This document shows, in pieces, positions 14,977-32,095 of a DNA stretch of 37,081 nt. The translations under genes and the position numbers were made by a program. Below the pieces are notes generated by a model, which saw only the letters and a list, made by a program, of their open reading frames with translations, was not told where the DNA came from and searched no databases. The DNA is taken from the NCBI GenBank assembly GCA_001593865.1, contig LUCB01000014.1, positions 1-37,081 on the forward strand, written 5' to 3'. The first letter of the stretch is position 1. Each line of letters opens with the position of its first letter. The DNA is from Candidatus Bathyarchaeota archaeon B24. Lineage in GTDB: Archaea; Thermoproteota; CALKCG01; B24.

Positions 14977-16065
14977 TTACTCCTTTTGTTTAAGCCATAA
15001 GTCTATCGGTTTATCCGCGTCCATTGTGAACGGTAGACTCACTTTCCTACCTACGGCTGCCGAGTAGTATCCAGCCATTATAAGCTCCATGACGACTCTC
15101 CCATCCTCCCCGGTGACGAGCGGCTTCTCGTCTCTTTTAACGCACTCCACGAAATGAGCCATCTCTTGTGGGAATCCATACTGCCACAGCTCATCCGGGA
15201 CGCAGTATGTCCATCCCCTTGTGGTCGGAGCCTTTTCGACGGCGTATCCATAGCCTCTTTCGCTGTACACCAGAAGCGAGGAGCCCATGAGTAGGTCTGC
15301 GTATATAACGCCCTCTGAGCCATAGAACTCCGCCTTATCGTCCATACCTCCCCTCCTAGCCCAGCTGTCCTCGGCTAAACCTGTGACGCCGCCTTCAAAC
15401 TCGACGATCGCTATGCTGTTATCCTCTCCCTGCGTCTTATCACCGTGAACCTCCCTCGAGAAGTGGCAGTAGATGCTCTTAGGTCTCCTCCTGTCTACGA
15501 CCCAGTAGAAGAAGCATAGCGCATGGCAGCCCATATCCATGAACACACCTCCCCCGGATTTTTCGACATCCCAGAACCAATCCGAGTGAGGGCCGAAGTG
15601 CTTCTCACTCTGCTTCATGAGATAGAGGCTTCCTATAGCCCCCTCGTCTATAAGCTCCTTAGCCCTAACGTATTTCGGGGCGAAGCAGAGCTCCTCGGCA
15701 TACATGAGCTTTACCCCGTACCTCCTACACGCCGATATCATTTGATCGGCTTGCTTAAGGCTCATGGCGAAGGGCTTCTCCATGATCACATGCTTCCCTG
15801 CCTCAGCGGCCTCCACACATAACTTCGCGTGGAGATAGTTCGGGACACCTATGCTCACAAGCTCGACCTCATCCATCTCAAGCAGCTTACGGTAGTCTGT
15901 GAAGTAGTTCTTAATCCCATGTTTCTTAGCGAAGGCTTTGACATGGCTAAGCGTCGGGGAAGCTACAGCCACGATTTCGGCGTCTCTACACCGTTTAAAC
16001 GCGTCTGCATGGATATCGGCTACGAATCCACTACCTATAATCCCGACACACACTCTACGAGACAT
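14977..16065 (-). CDS. Gfo/Idh/MocA family NAD(P)-dependent oxidoreductase
   Basis: A 362-residue sugar or cyclitol dehydrogenase of the Gfo/Idh/MocA family. The N-terminal Rossmann fold has GIIGSGFVADIHA (8-20); the hallmark EKP is at 96-98 within HVIMEKPFA; the C-terminal alpha/beta domain carries GGGVFMDMGCH, whose histidine is at the place of the family's catalytic histidine. Likely substrates are sugars, inositols or their nucleotide forms, but none can be chosen. It stands alone, with an AT-rich promoter to its right (ATTTAATACTAAACG, about 16078-16092). Confidence 0.9.
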   Translation of the reverse strand: MSRRVCVGIIGSGFVADIHADAFKRCRDAEIVAVASPTLSHVKAFAKKHGIKNYFTDYRKLLEMDEVELVSIGVPNYLHAKLCVEAAEAGKHVIMEKPFAMSLKQADQMISACRRYGVKLMYAEELCFAPKYVRAKELIDEGAIGSLYLMKQSEKHFGPHSDWFWDVEKSGGGVFMDMGCHALCFFYWVVDRRRPKSIYCHFSREVHGDKTQGEDNSIAIVEFEGGVTGLAEDSWARRGGMDDKAEFYGSEGVIYADLLMGSSLLVYSERGYGYAVEKAPTTRGWTYCVPDELWQYGFPQEMAHFVECVKRDEKPLVTGEDGRVVMELIMAGYYSAAVGRKVSLPFTMDADKPIDLWLKQKE

Positions 16066-16258
16066 GGGTAGACCACAAATTTAATACTAAACGTAGATAG
16101 TTAAATCTGCTTGCCACCAATCTATGCGGTCGGTCTTCAAGTTTCCAGAGGCATAGCCCCCTCTCCCACACCATTCGAACTCTCTACAGAAATTTTTTGT
16201 TTAAATACAGGCGATCAAAATCGTTCATCGACGAGCCGTTAAGCCTGAGTATACAGGG

Positions 16259-16573
16259 ATGATCGTCTCCGACTCCGTTAAGCAGAGGCTTTTGGAGTTC
16301 GCTAAGCAGAAGGGCTACAGGTCTGTGAACCAATTTTTAGAAACATGGTTAGGGGTATACCCCGATGGAATTAAAAGAACTCTGAAAACATGCTCTTCTC
16401 AGAAACGGGATGCGGGGGACGGGATTCGTAGGACGGCGTCAAAGAGAAGGGGTGCTACAGGCCGTGATGGGTACTTCCTTCTCCCAGATAAACCCTGCAC
16501 CTACCTTAACCACACTAACCGTAAGCATCTCTATGCGGAGCTAGCGGCAGAGGGGGTACCTAAAAATTTTTAA
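16259..16573 (+). CDS. Hypothetical protein with ribbon-helix-helix-like N-terminus
   Basis: A 104-residue basic protein. The first 32 residues (VSDSVKQRLLEFAKQKGYR, then SVNQFLETWL) have the strand-helix-helix pattern of ribbon-helix-helix antitoxins and regulators; residues 45-75 are Lys/Arg-rich and low in hydrophobics, the rest is featureless. TATA-like TTTAAATAC lies at 16200-16208, about 55 nt upstream of the ATG. The composition of the second half is poor for a folded domain, so the true gene could end earlier through a frameshift. Family not recognised. Confidence 0.45.
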   Translation: MIVSDSVKQRLLEFAKQKGYRSVNQFLETWLGVYPDGIKRTLKTCSSQKRDAGDGIRRTASKRRGATGRDGYFLLPDKPCTYLNHTNRKHLYAELAAEGVPKNF

Positions 16574-16609: not shown

Positions 16610-17146
16610 ATGAAGCTCAGCACCCCAAGTAGGAAGATTCTTCACGCTGTAGTTGTCGTGGTCTTGGTCGTGGAGGCAGCTGGCTTAGCTTGGCTGTTCC
16701 TCGAGTACAGCGGCTTGAGCGACGAGCTTAGGTCTTCGGCCTGGAGCTTAGCGACTAAGAGCTTGCGTTACCTAGAAGGGGATGTAGAGCTCCTCATATA
16801 CCTCCTTGACGAAAACCCGGACATACACTTGATGGCGCTAACGGCTAGGAACGCTGCTGAACATGCATCGGTAACTGCGAGCGCTCTCTCCACACTCCAC
16901 GATCACGGAGGAAGGGACCACACGAAAACCTACGTATTAGGGGTAGCCGTAAGCAACATAGAAGCATACCTAAACACCCTCGCAAACAACCCCGATAAGG
17001 TGGCATCGCTGAAGGAGAACAAGGAGCTGCTTGAAGAAGCCGCATCGATCCTAAAGGAAATAGCGATGAAATATAGACAGGACCCAGAAGACATACCGAA
17101 GTCACTAATATCGAAACTACACAAAATATCAGAACAGCTACATTAA
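16610..17146 (+). CDS. Hypothetical protein with one N-terminal membrane segment
   Basis: A 178-residue protein: a short basic N-terminus, a hydrophobic segment at about 9-30 (ILHAVVVVVLVVEAAGLAWLF), then an extracytoplasmic helical domain of about 145 residues with amphipathic heptad-like stretches near the C-terminus. No catalytic motif or known family is visible. It follows the previous small gene by 36 nt and belongs to the variable patch left of the tRNA. Confidence 0.6.
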   Translation: MKLSTPSRKILHAVVVVVLVVEAAGLAWLFLEYSGLSDELRSSAWSLATKSLRYLEGDVELLIYLLDENPDIHLMALTARNAAEHASVTASALSTLHDHGGRDHTKTYVLGVAVSNIEAYLNTLANNPDKVASLKENKELLEEAASILKEIAMKYRQDPEDIPKSLISKLHKISEQLH

Positions 17147-17336: not shown

Positions 17337-17801
17337 TTAGCGGTAGTCTTCTAGGAAGAGGAGCTTGTAGTTTCTCTCCAGCTCGCCTATGTTTCTAAGC
17401 ATCTCCCTTTCACGTTTCTTGAAGACAGCTGTACAGCCGTATAGCTTCGAGACCGCTAGCACGTAGCAGTCCGTTAGGGCGAGGTTGTAGGCTAGCTTAA
17501 CCCCGCCAGCCTCAAGGGCCAGCTGGACGCCTTCGCCGACCACCCTGGCTGTTGGAAGCCTGTAAAGCCATTCCACGAGCTTCGAGGCGACAGCCTCAGC
17601 CCTCTCAACGCCCAGCGTGCGGTATATCTTAGTGGCTACGTAGAAGGTTTCAGCTAGAACAGCGTGCGGTATGAGTATCTCCAGCCTCCCGGCTAGGGCT
17701 GCGGAGAAGACGGCCTCCGCCTGCTCGTGAAGCTCACCCCTTAGGTCTATGTACTCTATGACGACGCTTGTATCTATGGCCGCCCTAGCCAACCTGGACA
17801 C
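17337..17801 (-). CDS. vapC: PIN-domain ribonuclease toxin (VapC)
   Basis: About 154 residues from the GTG at 17801, which overlaps the antitoxin gene by 17 nt. PIN-domain acidic residues: Asp10 in AAIDTSVVIEYID, Glu51 in AVLAETFY, Asp111 in LALTDCYVLA. The last acidic position, normally TRD, here reads FKKRERE, so Glu131 would have to serve or the site is weakened. VapC toxins cut tRNA or rRNA and are neutralised by the VapB partner. A longer reading up to 17891 exists but would run through the antitoxin gene without a domain to match. Confidence 0.9.
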   Translation of the reverse strand: MSRLARAAIDTSVVIEYIDLRGELHEQAEAVFSAALAGRLEILIPHAVLAETFYVATKIYRTLGVERAEAVASKLVEWLYRLPTARVVGEGVQLALEAGGVKLAYNLALTDCYVLAVSKLYGCTAVFKKREREMLRNIGELERNYKLLFLEDYR

Positions 17802-18045
17802 CCAGCTCTCTGAGGAGCCTGGCGGCCTTATCGCCCCCAGCCTTAGCCTCGCCCAGTATAGGCGCCGTAACCTCCGACCCCGCCTTAACAAACACCTCCG
17901 CCGGCGGCTCGCTTAAGGGCTCGAGAATCACCCTCTTACCCTCGACCCAAACCCTGAGAACTGTTCCCTTGGTTAAACCCATCCTGTCCCTGATCTCCTT
18001 GGGGATAACCACCTGCCCCTTCCTAGAAACCACTGTCTTCAACAA
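17785..18045 (-). CDS. vapB: AbrB/SpoVT-type antitoxin (VapB)
   Basis: About 86 residues. The swapped-hairpin AbrB DNA-binding domain is plain: KTVVSRKGQVVIPKEIRDR, then MGLTKGTVLRVWVEGKRVIL. The C-terminal part (about 55-86) should wrap around the VapC toxin. I take the TTG at 18045 as start because AGGTGG lies 5 nt upstream; a GTG at 18054 overlaps that site. The pair likely represses its own promoter, where TTTTAAGTAAG (about 18077-18087, minus strand) is a possible TATA box. Confidence 0.9.
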   Translation of the reverse strand: MLKTVVSRKGQVVIPKEIRDRMGLTKGTVLRVWVEGKRVILEPLSEPPAEVFVKAGSEVTAPILGEAKAGGDKAARLLRELGVQVG

Positions 18046-18177
18046 GGCGGCCACCTAAAATGGGTAAGAAAATGCTCTTACTTAAAATTTACCTCTTTAA
18101 CCCAAGACTGGGGCACGCGGTTGCGTGTATTTCCGTAGTCCAGTTTTAAGAGGGGGCGGCCTTCATAGTGGGTTGGA

Positions 18178-18593
18178 ATGGGCTTGTTTAAACGCTTGTT
18201 CGGCTGGCTTCCCGGCGATAGGGAGCTCGATGGGCTTATAGAAGGGCTTGCAAGCCAGCCTGAGTAGTCGGCTAGCGGGGATCCCGTCTGGCTTAACCGA
18301 GCGGATAGAACAAGCTCTCCCATATCCAGATGTCTTCAGGTCTAAGCTCGAAGAGAACGTAATCCCGGTAATGAGGAGGAAGACCTTAATAGATAGCTGG
18401 AGAGGCATCTTTGGGACGACCAAGTACGCAGAGGGGGATAAAGGAAAGGTCATCGAGGTATTAGAGAGGCTTCTCGAGGACAGGTGTCGAGGGAGGGCGC
18501 GAGCTTCTAGAGATGCCCCCTGTAGTGACGAAGGTCGGATACAGTTTTCACGGTTGGTTCTACGGCCTAGTCTTTACACGAAACCGTATGTAA
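18178..18593 (+). pseudogene. Unknown gene broken by two frameshifts
   Basis: Three successive frames give protein-like sequence. Frame 1 starts at the ATG at 18178 (MGLFKRLFGWLPGDRELDG) and stops at a TAG near 18267. Frame 2, readable from 18248, continues GIPSGLTERIEQALPYPDVF, then WRGIFGTTKYAEGDKGKVIE and VLERLLED to about 18480. Frame 3 from 18480 reads TGVEGGRELLEMPPVVTKVG, then YSFHGWFYGLVFTRNRM to the TAA at 18591-18593. Together about 135 residues. A TATA-like GTTTTAAG lies about 30 nt upstream of the ATG. Homology unknown. Either a decayed gene of the integrated patch or assembly errors; two independent shifts favour decay. Confidence 0.45.
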
Positions 18594-18599
18594 CATGAC

Positions 18600-18888
18600 A
18601 GAATAGGATATCCCGTGGAGATGCCCACAGACCCTCCGCGGCCACGTCCCTGGGGCTTGAAAAGTCGCGCAGATACCTCTCCGAGACATCCCTGGACTTC
18701 ATGTAGCTGACGAACCCATCCCTGACCCTAGGCCCCCCACCTAACCGAGAGCCTAGCCTCCTCACCCCTAAGAACCCTAAAAGCTATCTCGCAGGCCCTG
18801 GCAAGCTCCTCCAAACCCGAAACCCCCAGGGTACGGTCCCATCCATCCCCCAAAAAGAACCCCGGAGAACCCCCTTTCAGCCGAAAGA
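18600..18888 (-). pseudogene. Probable integrase N-terminal fragment (IntN scar), frameshifted
   Basis: Reading leftwards straight out of the tRNA-Gly gene, the minus strand encodes GLEELARACEIAFRVLRG, EEARLSVRWG in one frame; at a run of six G (about 18733-18738) the frame must change by one base to continue PRVRDGFVSYMKSRDVSERY, LRDFSSPRDV. The latter looks like the core-binding (SAM-like) domain at the start of archaeal tyrosine recombinases, which often begin inside or next to the tRNA they target. The catalytic domain is absent. Identification rests on pattern alone. The homopolymer could also hide a sequencing error. Confidence 0.42.
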
Positions 18889-18962
18889 TGCGGTGGGCGG
18901 GATTCGAACCCGCGAACCCCGCCGTGGCAGGGCGGTATCTTACCAGGCTAGACCACCACCGC
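18889..18962 (-). tRNA. tRNA-Gly (GCC anticodon)
   Basis: A full 74-nt cloverleaf on the minus strand. The acceptor arm pairs GCGGTGG with CCACCGC, with discriminator A; the anticodon stem CCGCC/GGCGG encloses CTGCCAC (anticodon GCC); the T arm is GCGGG-TTCGAAT-CCCGC. There is no intron and no encoded CCA. Immediately downstream come a small TTTC-GGCT-GAAA hairpin and then a T-rich run (TTCTTTTT, about 18851-18858), suitable for termination. An open frame continues from the 3' half into an integrase-like sequence, as expected of a tRNA used as an attachment site. Confidence 0.96.
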
Positions 18963-19095
18963 ACCTGAAAGTATCAGGGTAAGGGGGTCGATATAAATTT
19001 TAAACCTCTTTGCTTCGAGTAGGTGTTTTCCGCCGCTGTTATGGGGATAGAAGAAGGTTTTTCTTGGAGGGTTGTTTCTTGTTATTTTTCGAGGG

Positions 19096-24300: not shown

Positions 24301-25038
24301 CTATTTAACAGTTTCACGTTTTTCCTCCATGAAGGTTCTTTGTTGATGAGAAAAACTTAAACGAGAAGAAATTCGCTCAACAATTTTATCTATGGATTTT
24401 TCTACAAAAGCCATAACACTATCCATTATCTCTAAGATTTTCCCATAATCATAAGACTCGAGTAGAGAATCCTGCTTAGACACAGCCTCTTTGAGAATTT
24501 TTAATACCTCCTCTCTTCTTTCTGGACTTATCGACTCTAAAGACTTTGTAAAATCAGAAACCTTCTCAAAGATCGACTTTTTTAGAAGTTCAAAGACATC
24601 TATAGGATCTTTCACTTTTATGATATCTTCCGGAAGATAATATGCAGCATCGACATAATGTATATCGTTAGCATATCTTGCATACATAGTATACCATAGC
24701 CTCAATTTCAAAATTTCAAAAAGTGCGGGTTTTATGGCTGAGTTTAAAAGTCTAACATCTCTTCTAATCTTTTCGTCTTTCTCCCGCTTTTTAAGAATTT
24801 CTTCAACAGTATTTTTGAGCAGGTTATACCTACTCCAGTCAGGTATTTTAAATAAAAAGTTTTTATATTGAACTTCCCTTGTTTCATCATTAAAAACAGC
24901 GTTAGATGCAAACTCCTCCAAACTAAATATTCCTACTTGTTCCGTGAAGAACATTCGTTTTACCCTTAAAGTTAAAACTACTCCATCTGTACTGATAATA
25001 TACTTCTTTTTGTTATGTTCAGCAATTATCTTGAACAT
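24301..25038 (-). CDS. Hypothetical soluble protein of the FtsZ-like operon
   Basis: A 245-residue protein with no signal peptide or membrane segment. Residues 1-70 alternate short beta strands (FKIIAEHNKKKYIISTDG, VVLTLRVKRMFF) and end in an amphipathic helix, a pattern compatible with a small PH-like or beta-sandwich adaptor domain. The rest (75-235) is helical and highly charged, with a likely coiled coil at about 150-225. It begins 1 nt after the preceding stop, so it is coupled. The DNA here is visibly richer in A and T than the rest of the operon. I do not recognise the family; a cytosolic adaptor for the polymer or for the membrane protein is a guess. Confidence 0.7.
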   Translation of the reverse strand: MFKIIAEHNKKKYIISTDGVVLTLRVKRMFFTEQVGIFSLEEFASNAVFNDETREVQYKNFLFKIPDWSRYNLLKNTVEEILKKREKDEKIRRDVRLLNSAIKPALFEILKLRLWYTMYARYANDIHYVDAAYYLPEDIIKVKDPIDVFELLKKSIFEKVSDFTKSLESISPERREEVLKILKEAVSKQDSLLESYDYGKILEIMDSVMAFVEKSIDKIVERISSRLSFSHQQRTFMEEKRETVK

Positions 25039-25039
25039 A

Positions 25040-26029
25040 TTATTTCAACCCCAAAAATTCAAGAACCTCGATAGCTGGTGAAAGGTCTTCTACCACATTC
25101 TTAATAGAGAAGCATTTTTCGCTAATATATCTGTATTTTTCCGGATCAAGCCTTTTTACTCCTAAAAAGAGCACAATTCTTCTTTTATCTCCATATCTAC
25201 AGATTATATCTAAATCTACCAGGTTTTTAAAGTTCAAAGCCCATTCCTGAAATTCATGAACCACCTTATCTTCGTTCTTCTCGAACCCTGTCCCATAAAC
25301 ATATAGAAGCGCATATTCCACGTCTTCTCTCTTGTAGCCGGTCAATACCGTATATTCGATTATTCTAAGCATACCCTTCAGACTATCGAAGACTTCGTCG
25401 CTTACACTGTACATAATCGCGGGTATGAACAATCGTATCTGAAACTTCTTCAACTTCTCATAAACTTCTTCGTTTAACATGGTCGGAAGAACAGTGGATA
25501 AGAGGTCTACGATCACTTGACGCGGTGTTTTACGTTTACCTGAGTCTATAAGGATCATCTCATTCCATAATCTATCGTGGTCTATCAACACGGTTACGCC
25601 GCACCGATCTACAAGCGGTGAGCCGCATAATGTCGCATATATCCTATACGGTGTCTCGTCTCTGGATGGTAAAGTGCTCACGTAGACGTTCAGTTTGCCA
25701 GGATACCTCTCTTTAACAATAGATGTCATAAGTCTTACAAGCCTATCTCCTGCCACACCAGCCACCGCCACTTTTTTAACGTGTTTAAACCCTAGGCAGG
25801 CTATCCACGTGCCGACAACTTTTCTAGCTTCGTCTTCACCTAATTCCTCTACATCGATAAATAGGTCGCCGTTCTCGACCCTAGTTCTCTCATCCTCTAA
25901 TACGTTGAAGATGTCGTTGCCGCTATGTGCTCTTGTGAGGTTCACCGCTATCCCGAGTCTCCTAGGTATGGTGAAACGCCTCTCCGGTAGTCTCAGTATA
26001 CCCATCAGCTCCTCGTCCAGTTCGGTCAC
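25040..26029 (-). CDS. Predicted degenerate FtsZ/tubulin-fold protein
   Basis: A 329-residue soluble protein. I see the FtsZ order of elements: strand VAVAGVAGDRLVRLM (87-101) where the T4 loop GGGTGSG should be, strand YVSTLPSRDE (116-125) where FtsZ has VTKPFxFEG, then CGVTVLIDHDRLW (143-155) matching FtsZ's VDTLIVIPNDKLL, and a C-terminal domain with ALLYVYGTG (240-248) and DIICRYGDKRRIVLFLGVKR (274-293), matching INITGG and VRVTVIATG. The glycines for nucleotide and the acidic T7 loop are missing, so it should not hydrolyse GTP. Its GTG start overlaps the upstream stop by 4 nt. This is pattern-based inference without a search. Confidence 0.6.
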   Translation of the reverse strand: MTELDEELMGILRLPERRFTIPRRLGIAVNLTRAHSGNDIFNVLEDERTRVENGDLFIDVEELGEDEARKVVGTWIACLGFKHVKKVAVAGVAGDRLVRLMTSIVKERYPGKLNVYVSTLPSRDETPYRIYATLCGSPLVDRCGVTVLIDHDRLWNEMILIDSGKRKTPRQVIVDLLSTVLPTMLNEEVYEKLKKFQIRLFIPAIMYSVSDEVFDSLKGMLRIIEYTVLTGYKREDVEYALLYVYGTGFEKNEDKVVHEFQEWALNFKNLVDLDIICRYGDKRRIVLFLGVKRLDPEKYRYISEKCFSIKNVVEDLSPAIEVLEFLGLK

Positions 26030-28482
26030 CCCCTCGGCATTATAACACCAAACTGGTTTACCGAATACTCGTAATTCTTCTGGACGAACAGGTTGACGAA
26101 AACCGTTAGATGGCTCTCTGTCAGAGGTATGTCTCTGACGTCGATCTTTCCGTATCGTCTGATAGCGTCTTTAACGTATCTCTCGAGAATCGGGAAGATG
26201 CTCGCGACATCTGCTAGAACCTTATCTTTCTTGAGGGACTCGTCAAGCCCTCTTCTGAGTTCTATGTACATCGTTAACGTGGAGAATAGTTCATCTCCGC
26301 TTCTCCAGTTGAGTAGAGCATCTCTCATTCTTTCAAGTTCCTTCGCATAGGCGTTTGACTCTGTTTTTGTGAAAACAGACTCTATACCTGAACCTTTTAG
26401 TATATCTTTGATTAAACTATTTAACCTATCGATCCTATCTAGGATCTCGTCGATTTCAGCGGTCATATCCGCGATTTTCTCATCTACCTTTTCGACGAAA
26501 ATGTCGACGTTAAATATATTCTTAGATTCTTCGGTTAATTCGATGCCGAGTAGCCTAGAGAGCTTCTCCAGAAGATCCAAGTATTTCTTCTCATAACTGT
26601 TGCTAAGGCTTATGAGCGTTCTTCTTATGAATATATCTAGGCTAAACGGGTCTTCCTCTATACTATCTATGCTGATAGATGGGTGGGTTAGATGAGCCTC
26701 CGGTATGAGTCTTCCAAGCGCCTCTAAAACACTGTTATATCTCAATATGATGACCTTTGCAAAGTCTAGAAAGTTATCTCTAACCACCGCGTATTTTCCT
26801 AGAGCTCCGTCGAAATCCAGCTCCTCAACCTTGACCTCTGACGGTTTAAGCAACTTCTCGATGTCGGCCCAAGAGTGTTTCTCCTTAAACTTCTCCAGGG
26901 CTGTATCTAGTTTAAACCCTACTTCTTCAAGCTCGTTAGCGATTGTGCTGTGAAGCTCTATAAGCGCCTTAATCCTGAGCTTTACATCGGTCTCCAACCT
27001 GTTCATGAGCTTTTTCAAGTTCGAGTGTTTATCCCTGATACTAGCCATTATGCTTTCTAAAATGGGGGCCGTCGTGACGGTTTCGGCTCTTTTCACGTCG
27101 CTTTCGACACTCTCGAAGAGTTTTCTGGCGACTATAACCTCAGACGGCTCTATCCCCGCCTTCGTCCGAAGGGCCTTACATTTTTCAGAGAAATGTTCAT
27201 ATAGCTTTTTGAAAAGCGCACCTACATCCATTATCTCAGTCTTAAGCCTTAAAACCTCTCTAAGGTTGTCTTCGTAGTAATCTCTTAGAGAGATCAGGGC
27301 GCCGAAGACGATCGTGAAAGACATCGTGTACTGGAAGCCGCCGCCTGCAAATGTCAAGTCCGTAGTATAGGAGAGAGGTGCTCCTAAAGCTTCTACAAGA
27401 TAAACTGTTATCAGAAAAAAGAGTACCACCGCGAAGAGGCTGGAAAACGCCTTTATTCTTGGATAGATTTTCTCAAGCCTAACGGCGATCAGGTCTCTGA
27501 TAAACCCTCCGAGGACCAAGGAGACTCCTATGACTCCCCCTATCAGGAGAACTATTATGAGAATTGTGAGGATATAGCTTAGTACAAAGCGCATGAACAT
27601 GGCAATTTCATTAGAGTCGTCGGTCAAAGCATGCATCCAATATGAGGCGAAGCTAGGTGAAAATATCGACTCCGCATCTATATCGATAAAGCATCCATGT
27701 GTTCTGCAGTAGACTCTCTTTAAGTCGTCCAGCCCCTCAGCCATCACCTGGTTTTCGCCATAAGTAGTCTTTGAAACACCGAAGACCCTAGCCATGAGCT
27801 CCCAGAGGCTTTGAGCCGGAGTGATCAGTGGAATAGGTCTGTCTCTAGAGCCTCTTCCAAGCAGGTAGGAGTATGAGCCATGAAAGCTTGTGCTCGGTAT
27901 GGAGAAAACCCGGTATACTGGCTGGTTTTCCACGAAATGTGGATTGGCTATATTCATGGCGATTATGAAAGGCGTACATATCATCGTAAACACCAGCGCT
28001 ATCGAAAGAGCGGAGCGGACCTTCATCCTCTCGAACGCCATGGTAAGTATCAGCACCGGTATGGAGAATATGAAGAGTGTCGGATGAAGGGGAAGAGACG
28101 CTGCTAGAAACGTTAGAAAGACAGTGCTCGTTCTCGCGTTAAGTAGCGTGGCTGACGAAAACGCTATGAGCACCAATAGCAGCTGTATCGGTAGGAGAAG
28201 CTGCAGAGTCGAATAGACTGAGGCTACATTCAAGATTATGACCGTGACTGCGAATAGGTAGAAGATCTTGACCGCAGCCCCTTCTCTTCCTTGAAAAACC
28301 AGTATACCTATCATTAAGGATATCACTAACGGTAGGACGTAGTTTCCTCCTATAGGGAGGAGAGGGTAGATGAAAAAGATGGCGTAAGACGAGATGAAGG
28401 CTATTACACTATCTAATATCCTATATATACGGTCTAGTAGAGCTTTCTCAGGTAGGCTAAGGTGATCACCCTCCTTCTTCAA
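26026..28482 (-). CDS. Polytopic membrane protein with long cytoplasmic helical tail
   Basis: An 818-residue protein. Hydrophobic segments lie at about 22-42, 47-64, 72-90, 94-113, 118-150, 158-177, 297-327, 345-366 and 384-399. Between 181 and 296 is a soluble, probably external loop with two cysteines (259 and 264) that could form a disulfide. Residues 400-818 are charged and mostly helical with coiled-coil character, probably cytoplasmic, and could bind the FtsZ-like filament. The start is a TTG at 28482 (AGGGG six nt upstream), overlapping the GTPase gene by 17 nt. I recognise no named family. It is the best candidate for the membrane hub of the system. Confidence 0.8.
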   Translation of the reverse strand: MKKEGDHLSLPEKALLDRIYRILDSVIAFISSYAIFFIYPLLPIGGNYVLPLVISLMIGILVFQGREGAAVKIFYLFAVTVIILNVASVYSTLQLLLPIQLLLVLIAFSSATLLNARTSTVFLTFLAASLPLHPTLFIFSIPVLILTMAFERMKVRSALSIALVFTMICTPFIIAMNIANPHFVENQPVYRVFSIPSTSFHGSYSYLLGRGSRDRPIPLITPAQSLWELMARVFGVSKTTYGENQVMAEGLDDLKRVYCRTHGCFIDIDAESIFSPSFASYWMHALTDDSNEIAMFMRFVLSYILTILIIVLLIGGVIGVSLVLGGFIRDLIAVRLEKIYPRIKAFSSLFAVVLFFLITVYLVEALGAPLSYTTDLTFAGGGFQYTMSFTIVFGALISLRDYYEDNLREVLRLKTEIMDVGALFKKLYEHFSEKCKALRTKAGIEPSEVIVARKLFESVESDVKRAETVTTAPILESIMASIRDKHSNLKKLMNRLETDVKLRIKALIELHSTIANELEEVGFKLDTALEKFKEKHSWADIEKLLKPSEVKVEELDFDGALGKYAVVRDNFLDFAKVIILRYNSVLEALGRLIPEAHLTHPSISIDSIEEDPFSLDIFIRRTLISLSNSYEKKYLDLLEKLSRLLGIELTEESKNIFNVDIFVEKVDEKIADMTAEIDEILDRIDRLNSLIKDILKGSGIESVFTKTESNAYAKELERMRDALLNWRSGDELFSTLTMYIELRRGLDESLKKDKVLADVASIFPILERYVKDAIRRYGKIDVRDIPLTESHLTVFVNLFVQKNYEYSVNQFGVIMPRG

Positions 28483-31087
28483 TGGCTTCCCCTCGGGCTA
28501 AGATAACCCTGAAACCATGCTCCAGTAGAAACGATGAGAACATGCTTTTATCTATTACCTGCTCCGCGTTGACTTTTATCGACTCGTAGATCTCCAGGTC
28601 CTCCGGTCTGGCTTTGGCACATATAACCATGAACTGTATGGTCCAGGGGTCTAGGCTCTCTATGGGTCTTATGTTGACCCCTATCCCCGCCTCTACGGAT
28701 GAGTATATCGCTAGGGTATTCCTCAACGCCTCTTCTAGGTCCTTGTCCCATATTATCGGCGTAGCCACTATGGCCCATATGACGTCGCTCCTATAGGTGT
28801 CTTTGAGACCTAGGATCCCAGGGACGGCGAACGTCTTTATGTAGCTTCTCAAAATATCCTTAAACCTGCTTAGGTTTATTATGTTCATGATCTCCGTCGA
28901 ATCCTTAAGCTTATCCTCCTCCTCCTTGAGTATCACGTCTAAGATCTTAAGCCTCTCCTCCTCTGTAAGCTCTATAACCCGCTCATAGTACCTCTCAGAC
29001 TTAGTGGCCTCGCTCATCTTCCTAGCGTAGTCGATCTCGATCATGCTCAGCTGGTTAAGCAGCTTTCTATAGTCGCTGTTGAGGTCGACGCTATTGATTA
29101 TATCCTTCACGGCGGAAGACATTTCTTCTATATGCTCTCTGATGGAGTTGTAGTGTTCAAGCTCTGTTCTAAGCCTACTTATCTCCTCCCTAAGGTCAGC
29201 CATCTCGGCATTCAACCTCTTCCTTTTTCCCGTAAAGTCAAACCTGATCTTAGATAACGCCCTCTCTAACTGGTCTAACCGGGTCTTCCTCTCAGCCAGA
29301 TGTCTCTCGATGCTCTCCAGGTTTATAAGCACCATACCTCTCTTAGCGTCTATAGCCCTTTTAGCCATGATCAGCGAGGTCAAAGCCTGGTCTATGGTTC
29401 TAAACTCTTTACTAGGTTTCTCAGCCATCGTTAGCACGAGCTTATACAAAGCTATCAAGAGGTTCGTGTAATCGTTAACCGTCTTGGTAAGCTCCTCGTC
29501 CGTTTTACTGTATATGATCCTGAGCTCTTCGGCTATATGCCTCGCCTTAAGGTAGGAGTCGAGAAACTTCAACGTACACTTGATAAACATCATGGTAGTC
29601 AGTATCCTACTAAGGTAGATCTTCTGCCTAGAAGAAAACTCCTTAACGGTCTCGAGTCCTAAGCCAAGTTCCCTAACATGCTGCTCGATGGAATCTATGT
29701 AGTCCTTCGAATAGTTAGCAGCCGGCTTGAAACAGTACTCGACGACTTCCTTAACCTTATTCAAATAAGACCTAGCGATCGTCCCTTCTTTGAAACTCAT
29801 GGACCTGAGAGGAAGTATCAGCATCTTCGTTAACTCAGCAAGCGCGAGCTCGAAAGCCTTAAGGTTTTCTGAGAACTCCGCCTCAAGCCTCCCCCCTCTA
29901 TGCGAAATATCTGAGATATACCTCTCTACATCCGTGTCTAACCTATTCTCGACGATGTACCTTCTTAGATAGGTCTTAAGCTCTTCATAGACCCTATCGA
30001 CGATCGAGAGGGCTTTTTCGACGATCTTCACCTTATGCTCTATTAAATTGCTCAGCAGATTCGCCTCCTCGAGGATCATCTTGGAAAGTTCGACATACTC
30101 GTCCACGGGGAACCTTATCTTAAGGAGCCCTATGAGGTTTAGGAACGAGTCTCCCGGGTCTACGCTTGAACCTATAGACGCCACCAGGTCGGCGATGTCG
30201 AAGCTAGAAAGCATCCTTATGATCTCGACTATCGCATCGTCTATCTGCTTCTTAGCCTCGATTAGTGTGCCTTCTTTGGTATGCGTCACCGCGACCTGTA
30301 ACGGTATGAACAACGCAAGGCTGAACGGGTTCTTATACTTCTCCCCATATCTTTTAACGATCTCTTTGTTAAGCTCTAGGTTGAATATGTACCTAAGCTC
30401 TTGGAGGGCTAAAAACGGCGATATTCCCTTGGCAAGCGAGTCGTCCAAGGTGGCTGGTAGAACCGAAAGCATTATTATCGGTACACCGCTACCTAGCTTC
30501 TCCCTCAGATGCCTACTTAGGTCGAATAGCACCCCGCTGCCCGTACCACCGCCCAAGCCGAAAACTATGTACACCAGAGGCGAAACGATCGACGAGAAGA
30601 CCCGGTCCCTAAATTCGTTCATGTAATTGCCAAGCTGCGCCAGGTGATAGTAGTTTAACGCGTAAACCGCCTTAGCCAAGGCCCTCTGCCTACCTGCCCC
30701 ACCTGCGAGCGAAGGTATTTTAGTCCTGAAGGTTATCCAGCTTCTGTAGTTCTTCGCTTTTATCCCCTCTTTCAACAGGTACCTAGGATACATGGACATG
30801 AAGTCGAATAGGATGTCTGGGCTTGAGAACTTGATGGTTAACGCCCTTAGCCTAATCCTATCTAAGGGGATGCCGTTCATCCGCATCTCTTCTTGAAGCT
30901 TCAGATACTCGTTCTTAAGCTCCATTATATCTCCGTCGGCTATATCTATGGCTAGAAAGGCGGGTCTGAAATCCTCCAGGTTAAAAAGCATCTCCTTAAA
31001 ACTCGGGTGTCTCAGAAAGGTCGTTATCACGTTAGCGCCGGTTCCACCCAAACCGACTATGTGAAACTGACTATGAAGCTTCATCAT
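28466..31087 (-). CDS. Large FtsZ/tubulin-like GTPase (FtsZl-type)
   Basis: An 873-residue protein of the FtsZ-tubulin superfamily. T1 loop GLGGTGAN at 12-19, the T4 signature FGLGGGTGSG at 176-185, and a T7-like SSVDPGDS at 307-314 comparable to FtsZ's NVDFAD; all the pieces for GTP binding and hydrolysis seem intact. Residues about 330-740 are a long helical, coiled-coil-rich insertion, and about 755-860 (SDVIWAIVATPIIWD ... IQFMVICAKARP) look like the C-terminal activation domain. Twice the length of FtsZ (about 350-400), so it is not the division protein. Large FtsZ-like proteins have been described in bacteria and archaea and proposed to remodel membranes. ATG overlaps the upstream stop (ATGA); a second ATG follows directly. 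Confidence 0.88.
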   Translation of the reverse strand: MMKLHSQFHIVGLGGTGANVITTFLRHPSFKEMLFNLEDFRPAFLAIDIADGDIMELKNEYLKLQEEMRMNGIPLDRIRLRALTIKFSSPDILFDFMSMYPRYLLKEGIKAKNYRSWITFRTKIPSLAGGAGRQRALAKAVYALNYYHLAQLGNYMNEFRDRVFSSIVSPLVYIVFGLGGGTGSGVLFDLSRHLREKLGSGVPIIMLSVLPATLDDSLAKGISPFLALQELRYIFNLELNKEIVKRYGEKYKNPFSLALFIPLQVAVTHTKEGTLIEAKKQIDDAIVEIIRMLSSFDIADLVASIGSSVDPGDSFLNLIGLLKIRFPVDEYVELSKMILEEANLLSNLIEHKVKIVEKALSIVDRVYEELKTYLRRYIVENRLDTDVERYISDISHRGGRLEAEFSENLKAFELALAELTKMLILPLRSMSFKEGTIARSYLNKVKEVVEYCFKPAANYSKDYIDSIEQHVRELGLGLETVKEFSSRQKIYLSRILTTMMFIKCTLKFLDSYLKARHIAEELRIIYSKTDEELTKTVNDYTNLLIALYKLVLTMAEKPSKEFRTIDQALTSLIMAKRAIDAKRGMVLINLESIERHLAERKTRLDQLERALSKIRFDFTGKRKRLNAEMADLREEISRLRTELEHYNSIREHIEEMSSAVKDIINSVDLNSDYRKLLNQLSMIEIDYARKMSEATKSERYYERVIELTEEERLKILDVILKEEEDKLKDSTEIMNIINLSRFKDILRSYIKTFAVPGILGLKDTYRSDVIWAIVATPIIWDKDLEEALRNTLAIYSSVEAGIGVNIRPIESLDPWTIQFMVICAKARPEDLEIYESIKVNAEQVIDKSMFSSFLLEHGFRVILARGEAIEEGG

Positions 31088-32019
31088 TTCTCAATCCTCC
31101 GAAGCCTCTCGGCGATATCTGAAAGATTTTTCGCAAGCCTAGTATCGATTTTGTCAAGAGAGGTTTTCACAGCCGCTATATCGACGAGAGCAGAGTCGAC
31201 TATGTGCTTAACATACGCATTCTCTCCTCTAGCCCTAGCATACATCGCAAAGCCCACGAGCGTTAGGATGCCGAGAACCACAGACGTAGCCGCCAAACCA
31301 TAGGTGAGCATGGGGCTCGGGGGTTTAGGAAACTCCAAGCTTAAAAGCGAATCCACGATCGATATAGCGTATTCTGTTAAACCCGCCTCGTTGAGCCTGT
31401 TCGATTCGTCGATGACCGCATCGACTATGCTTCTGTACTCAGGTGGTATATCGGCTGACTGAAGCTCCTTAACCTTCGTCTCATAATCGTAGACTTTAGA
31501 GGACGTGAGCCTAAAGGTCACGCTGCCGACGGGATTACCCTCGAACATGATGGAAACGAGAACATAGCTATCCTTCACGTCGTAGATGTGGTAGCTAGCA
31601 CCGTTAGGTGCATTAATCGTGTAAACCACTATGTTTTCCGACGGTATCCTAAATTTAACCTTGAGCCTAAGCTCTCCCTTGAACACCCTAAACGTTATCG
31701 TCCTATCCGCCAGCTCTTTCATGGTTTCCTCGTCGACGCCTGCATAATCGTTAGTTATCTCCCAGAAGGGGGTCGTCGGGGTTAGAGGCTCATGATTACT
31801 CGGGATCTCTACGCTAAAGCGTTTGTCGGTTAAGTTGAAGGGAACGTTAATCACCATCTCGACCTCGTAGTCTGTGTCTGCAAATATCGTATCGTCGACT
31901 GGTTTATTCGCGCCTACGAACTCATAGGACGTCAGCCAACTCTCTTGACATAGGGAGGTTGAAGCTAGAGCCGCTATAGCCATTAGGAATAGTATTATCA
32001 ACAATTTTTTAGAGACCAT
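31084..32019 (-). CDS. Exported protein with C-terminal membrane anchor, first gene of the FtsZ-like operon
   Basis: About 311 residues. The N-terminus (MVSKKLLIILFLMAIAALAS) is a signal peptide; the next ~210 residues form a beta-rich external domain with one NLT glycosylation site; a single membrane helix lies at about 238-261 (YGLAATSVVLGILTLVGFAM), followed by a ~50-residue cytoplasmic tail that is helical (LVDIAAVKTSLDKIDTRLAK ... ERLRRIEK). The topology puts the tail within reach of the GTPase. I use the ATG at 32019; a TTG at 32031 is possible. No family recognised. Its stop overlaps the GTPase start by 4 nt. Confidence 0.8.
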   Translation of the reverse strand: MVSKKLLIILFLMAIAALASTSLCQESWLTSYEFVGANKPVDDTIFADTDYEVEMVINVPFNLTDKRFSVEIPSNHEPLTPTTPFWEITNDYAGVDEETMKELADRTITFRVFKGELRLKVKFRIPSENIVVYTINAPNGASYHIYDVKDSYVLVSIMFEGNPVGSVTFRLTSSKVYDYETKVKELQSADIPPEYRSIVDAVIDESNRLNEAGLTEYAISIVDSLLSLEFPKPPSPMLTYGLAATSVVLGILTLVGFAMYARARGENAYVKHIVDSALVDIAAVKTSLDKIDTRLAKNLSDIAERLRRIEK

Positions 32020-32095
32020 GACCTTTCTCAACTGGTTATTAGTTTTAGCCCCACGATCGTTTTAAGTTTTACCTAGAATTTCTTGTATGCACGGC

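Follow-up and report, generated by a model that had tools for sequence, protein, structure and literature searches.

Mobile elements, one at the least and probably two, have left their remains beside the tRNA-Gly(GCC) gene of Candidatus Bathyarchaeota archaeon B24 in the DNA analysed here (37,081 nt of contig LUCB01000014.1, called the window). In our best reading, to which we give a probability of about 0.68, two tandem elements entered at this gene, an older element B, represented by an IntN piece, and a newer element A, represented by an integrase scar and probably by a VapBC pair, and both have since decayed. Direct support comes from the recombinase similarity of the scar, from a repeat of the tRNA 3′ end, from the breakpoint of a sister genome, which coincides with this repeat, and from the position of an IntN-like protein family at the ends of tRNA genes. 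The features at the tRNA gene are:

18887–18963, minus strand: tRNA-Gly(GCC), called by ARAGORN, the putative restored integration target
18728–18961, minus strand: first open frame, spanning the tRNA gene and sequence beyond it, 77 codons and a TAG counted from 18961
18577–18783, minus strand: second frame, by profile search the remnant of the core-binding domain of a PF16795-class tyrosine recombinase, the proposed scar of element A
18733–18738, minus strand: C6 run (G6 on the minus strand) in the overlap of the two frames, read from the sequence

The original prediction was that an open frame runs out of the tRNA gene into integrase-like sequence and is broken near a G6 run, and ARAGORN, the frames and the profile scores given below agree with it. 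The first frame, which has 81 open codons in a separate count of open frames, stops at the TAG at 18730–18728, and the second is open from 18783 to 18577 for 69 codons on the same strand as the tRNA. The change of frame can be placed only within the overlap of both frames, 18731–18783, where the G6 run is likely the obvious point for it. Taken alone, an open frame of such length leading out of a tRNA gene is weak evidence. The sister genome G001 matches the window over 2.9 kb at 97.4% identity and also carries the G6 run; because it shares both overlapping frames and the TAG, the frame break is older than the split of the two genomes. The first frame is open in the sister too, and the one insertion and one deletion that separate the genomes jointly preserve it. 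The scar is present in two of 101 genomes, these being B24 (G000) and G001. No empty site was found among the relatives, and the tRNA genes of G002 and G003 have other neighbours. In G004, which is from the same order, a decayed L023-type integrase of another subfamily comes directly after tRNA-Gly(GCC), on the strand of the tRNA, and its catalytic part is still matched (5.8e-32); therefore the site has been used in another family of the order.

To place the scar, we used profiles of related recombinases. A PF16795 search gave matches in 20 of 61 genomes, and a decayed integrase relic of G004 found in this way was picked as query for its weak resemblance to the scar. This relic gave a match in 16 of 398 genomes, and the core-binding profile was built from G004 and seven of the 15 other matched genomes, the rest being broken or more distant and omitted. 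The second frame alone scored 18.2 bits against it (E 1.1e-4 at Z=1000) and ranked first of the 567 frames of the window (stop-to-stop, at least 30 aa), the best unrelated frame reaching 7.0 bits. When the G004 domain was removed from the profile, the second frame again scored 18.2 bits and the joined frames, whose comparison with tyrosine recombinases had been proposed at the outset, scored 21.0 bits, whereas 20,000 shuffled versions of the joined frames scored 9.6 bits at most. With eight leave-one-out profiles the scar scored 18.7–25.4 bits, compared with 17.6–37.2 bits for the first 45 aa of real members. A larger control profile, extended by three viral members and by one of B24 itself, still placed the scar first, at lower scores (19.5 bits joined, 15.0 bits single). 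By its similarity to class members, the scar belongs to the PF16795 recombinase class through its core-binding domain only.

No catalytic domain follows the scar, as had been predicted: neither PF00589 nor PF16795 matched anywhere on the window contig, the matches in this genome being on C7, C25 and C19, and three integrase profiles gave no hit in the window. Perhaps about a third of the integrase remains. The scar had been taken for an integrase N-terminus, and this we revise, as the piece adjoining the tRNA gene is core-binding sequence, that is the start of the IntC side, and the likely IntN is at 16241–16408, outside the repeat. Broader searches with the scar gave nothing that we retain: Pfam and PHROGs scans of the joined frame gave no match, the best hits in phage and plasmid protein collections (E 0.07 and 0.2) are chance, and the single locus of a viral-contig scan, L104, where the match covers 12 residues of a frame unlike a recombinase, was dismissed as chance. 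A viral scan with integrase alignment A1 gave six loci, each with its match at a contig end and with no N-terminal part seen; three of them are the viral members of the larger control profile. The integrase at L090 was classed as pT26-2-like. Elsewhere in the B24 genome, locus L012 on C7 holds a recombinase frame of 212 aa (PF00589 over cut-off) that overlaps, at its 3′ end, tRNA-Arg(CCG) of the opposite strand. At L085 on C19 (1671–2594, minus strand) a frame of 308 aa is open, begins in a tRNA-like way (GFEPAT) and has a sub-cut-off PF16795 match; it looks like an IntC.

In SSV1 the integrase and the tRNA sequence of the att site are read in opposite directions, whereas the scar is read in the tRNA sense; it is the IntN-like piece that does read antisense. 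The SSV-type pattern of a split integrase, as originally predicted, is thus upheld in its recombinase similarity and att-like repeat and departed from in the sense of the scar. An integrase piece directly after the tRNA and on its strand is the layout of pNOB8-type (type II) elements, as described in the text that we consulted of PMC3293823, and a single element of this layout, with 16241–16408 as an unrelated small host gene, would account for the scar without a second insertion. The tRNA-Gly of G004 has such an arrangement, and L023, which gives its integrase type the name, matches the pNOB8 integrase (E 1e-10). The scar, however, matches the type I-class profile and does not figure in the seven frames (E up to 7.6) listed for a pNOB8-like profile of six core-binding domains, which was used without a leave-one-out control. 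Unlike in pNOB8-type elements, the gene is moreover not intact, having a broken frame and no catalytic part, which decay after integration could have caused. The family of 16241–16408 also has 10 of its 12 places elsewhere at tRNA 3′ ends, and in the window it adjoins a tRNA copy; we therefore regard the single same-strand element as unlikely, and prefer the reading with two.

The far boundary of the remains is marked by the following features:

16409–16428, minus strand: att′, a copy of the tRNA-Gly 3′ end with 18 of 20 bases identical, oriented as the tRNA and found by sequence search 2.48 kb to its left
16429–16557, no strand: 129 bases with no match in six relatives (G001–G006) by DNA comparison

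The copy of the tRNA 3′ half that was to be sought on the left is therefore present, as a direct repeat at the far end, and is longer in the sister. At 20 nt, the window repeat taken alone is weak, and its score of 30 was reached by two of 1000 random sequences with matched dinucleotide composition. The copy in G001 (L079, about 2057–2092) covers, with two gaps, the tRNA from its anticodon loop onwards and two bases after its end, and scores 43 against the tRNA 3′ half; none of 1000 dinucleotide-matched random sequences reached this score (largest 28). Natural DNA was the more demanding control: among 64 strands, from 32 loci, three scored 42, close to the 43 of the sister, and seven reached 30; the loci of these seven comprise two that hold tRNA-Leu genes and five recombinase loci in which ARAGORN found no tRNA. 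A review, from the literature drawn on here that includes PMC8371274 and PMC6972569, describes suicidal integrases as being split upon integration and their att sites as usually 40–50 bp. Likenesses to G002 in the tRNA trailer and to G004 in the att′ flank are too short to carry weight.

The position of the sister breakpoint is a stronger argument than the score of the repeat. G001 matches window positions 18990–16558 on its contig C71 and 16428–14906 on C63, so that homology to the left flank begins exactly at 16428, which is the repeat, and the right-side homology stops at 16558. Two close genomes differ precisely at the repeat, as an integration boundary would predict; C71 and C63 are separate contigs, which would be joined across the repeat. 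On the inner side of its repeat G001 has at least 2 kb with different genes (a DUF6884 protein and an AGOG-type DNA glycosylase; L079 440–1796, C63), and C63 1–2073 had no match at E 0.001 in G000 or in G002–G006. Among the seven genomes searched, these two genes near att′ occur only in the sister. A 64-aa ORF before the att of G001 was considered as the IntN of A and set aside as unsupported, with no Pfam match. Scar and repeat might both be products of chance, with VapBC and its neighbours as ordinary chromosomal genes, and the uninformative open frame and the modest window repeat would suit this explanation. It is already contradicted by the sister breakpoint at 16428 and the profile score, and neither the shuffles nor the longer sister repeat agree with it, and we hold it to be very improbable.

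The piece beyond the repeat belongs to a family of its own:

16241–16408, plus strand: IntN-like fragment reading rightwards into att′ (proposed element B); profile match at 16241–16402, family members at tRNA 3′ ends

The ORF at 16259–16573 (plus strand) crosses the repeat from the left, and the part that recurs elsewhere is its beginning. At E 0.001 the family was found at 14 places in eight of 398 genomes, and two of these places are those of G000 and G001. Ten of the 12 others read toward the 3′ end of a tRNA gene 10–123 nt away (Phe, Asn, Pro, Thr, Gly-GCC, Gly-CCC, three Ala and Gln); of the remaining two, one is beside tRNA-Ser, on the tRNA strand, and the other, in G352 (L154), has no tRNA and was rejected, being part of a 421-aa ORF unlike an integrase. 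The copies at Thr and Gly-GCC are broken and lie farthest from their tRNA genes; the IntN-like remnant near the tRNA-Gly(GCC) of G212 is weak and broken (E 3.1e-4). At five loci (L129, L130, L131, L146 and L165) the ORF keeps its frame while crossing the tRNA antisense, a trait of the IntN of suicidal integrases. With the threshold relaxed to E 0.05, 17 of 398 genomes matched; L132 and L134 were the only weaker places checked, and both are without tRNA. At L168 of G002 (C48, 5511–5732, minus strand) a different 73-aa ORF reads antisense into tRNA-Pro and is possibly another IntN family.

We infer from its position that the family of 16241–16408 is an integrase N-terminus. A joined IntN–IntC, or an intact integrase with the IntN-like domain, was not found, and viral-contig scans with the peptide and with the alignment gave no relative. 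Three integrase profiles found no IntC near the IntN-like copies in 11 stretches, several of which are shortened by contig ends. At L162 an ORF resembling a different recombinase comes after a second tRNA, and A1-type integrases occur elsewhere in G212 and G099. By our own reading, a tRNA-like stretch comes after a small N-terminal domain in the integrases of pT26-2 and pGE2; a profile comparison of this domain with the family was not significant (probability about 1%, E 0.057). Pfam gave the family only a match below cut-off, and a PDB search with its alignment gave nothing convincing (best E 0.13). Over 37 codons, six pairs of G002 and G003 copies had dN/dS values of 0.17–0.32, which once-active integrase copies would also show. 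The family could instead be a small protein gene that was retained after loss of the element, has its 3′ end encoded by the tRNA antisense and perhaps blocks or regulates re-integration; the copies stand at tRNA genes for Phe, Asn, Pro, Ala, Gly, Thr and Gln in a few members of this archaeal phylum, and the stretches fetched around them showed no IntC, which would fit this, and we think it improbable.

An IntN that reads rightwards into the left-facing 3′ end of a tRNA gene belongs to an element on its left. Here 16241–16408 has this position relative to att′ and not to the tRNA gene, which points to a second element, as if A had entered later, between B and the tRNA. The IntN-like piece reads into att′ and the core-binding piece comes after the tRNA, and their orientations do not fit two halves of a single gene. 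The tRNA-Gly(GCC) 3′ half would have served as integration site more than once. Arrays of elements that re-use one site are described in PMC6563490. In the order of events that we propose, B would have entered the tRNA gene by an archaeal type I ‘suicidal’ tyrosine recombinase and left its IntN reading into the 3′ end; A, with a PF16795-class recombinase, would later have inserted into the restored tRNA gene and shifted the IntN of B 2.5 kb off, the repeat at 16409–16428 being the presumed junction of A and B. Both would then have decayed, A to the core-binding piece, probably VapBC and two ORFs, and B to the IntN only. Neither an IntC of B nor a far repeat or second att was seen left of att′ in the window.

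The locus resembles type I (SSV-type, ‘suicidal’) systems such as SSV1, pT26-2 and pTN3 in that the core-binding sequence of the scar groups with the PF16795 class, an N-terminal-like piece reads into a tRNA-derived repeat, and the sister repeat reaches from the anticodon loop to the 3′ end; it differs from them in having no catalytic domain and an IntN-like piece outside the repeat. A single type I element that underwent internal inversion or shuffling, leaving IntC to read away from the tRNA, would explain why the scar reads tRNA sequence in one sense and the IntN-like piece in the other, and inversions between integrated elements are discussed for Thermococcales in the sections of PMC8371274 used here. 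A simple inversion between the repeats would, however, keep the IntN inside the element and not beyond att′, and L088 has a related integrase on the strand of its tRNA, so that the orientation needs no inversion; this course of events is quite improbable in our view, and two successive insertions remain preferred. The genes inside and beside the bounded 2.5 kb are:

18248–18598, plus strand: ORF of 116 aa, no Pfam, PHROGs or NCBIfam match
17785–18054, minus strand: AbrB/MazE-type antitoxin (VapB), PF04014 6.4e-10 and TIGR01439 2.8e-13
17337–17891, minus strand: PIN-domain toxin (VapC), longest ORF, PF01850 8.3e-15
16610–17146, plus strand: orf16610, 178 aa, with matches that are only weak or below curated cut-offs
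14977–16065, minus strand: flanking oxidoreductase, apparently chromosomal, 76% DNA identity in G002 C64

The AbrB/MazE-like antitoxin adjoins the PIN-domain toxin, and the two are predicted from their sequences to form a VapBC pair. It had been supposed that this patch of VapBC and small genes is residue of the element, and VapBC does lie inside the bounded 2.5 kb; that it arrived with A is probable. The genes left of 16241 look chromosomal. Differences between G000 and G001 amount to 5 of 718 positions in the VapBC stretch (17337–18054), 31 of 1089 in the oxidoreductase, 19 of 537 in orf16610 and 1 of 168 in the IntN-like piece, VapBC thus being far more alike between the sisters than the oxidoreductase or orf16610.

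Relics of this kind are known, as solitary intN fragments at tRNA genes are already published for Sulfolobus. The parts of PMC3718332 that we drew on report intN fragments at tRNA-Glu, Ala and Pro together with strongly degenerated elements in S. islandicus, and the resemblance lies in short N-terminal integrase remnants at tRNA genes with little else. That lineage is another one, and the fragment in B24 would differ in having been moved off its tRNA by a later insertion. Neither this locus nor the IntN-like family was met in the literature searched, which does not prove their absence from it. In kind, the locus is an ordinary genome fossil that is unusually readable, and the combination of a core-binding profile, a sister strain for the repeat and a protein family at tRNA ends offers a way to interpret integration sites in advanced decay. 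With its ten places at tRNA 3′ ends and no IntC in the searched stretches, the IntN-like family may serve to mark old integrations in Thermoproteota that are little known, and as a test case of whether solitary IntN pieces are only fossils.

Among named genomes, the nearest matches of the Elp3 protein are Bathyarchaeota MAGs, with 56–59% identity. Two further observations concern other parts of the window. At the contig end (1–340) there is a CRISPR-like array in which a repeat around CTTTCAATTCTCTCTATGAGATTC occurs six times at a spacing of 63–65 nt, its first copy being truncated by the contig end. At 24301–32031 (minus strand) a five-gene run, which looks like an unusual tubulin-like cluster, includes an 873-aa protein matching Tubulin_2 (PF13809, 1.1e-11), a 329-aa protein with a weak, sub-cut-off Tubulin match, and proteins of 818 and 315 aa without Pfam match.
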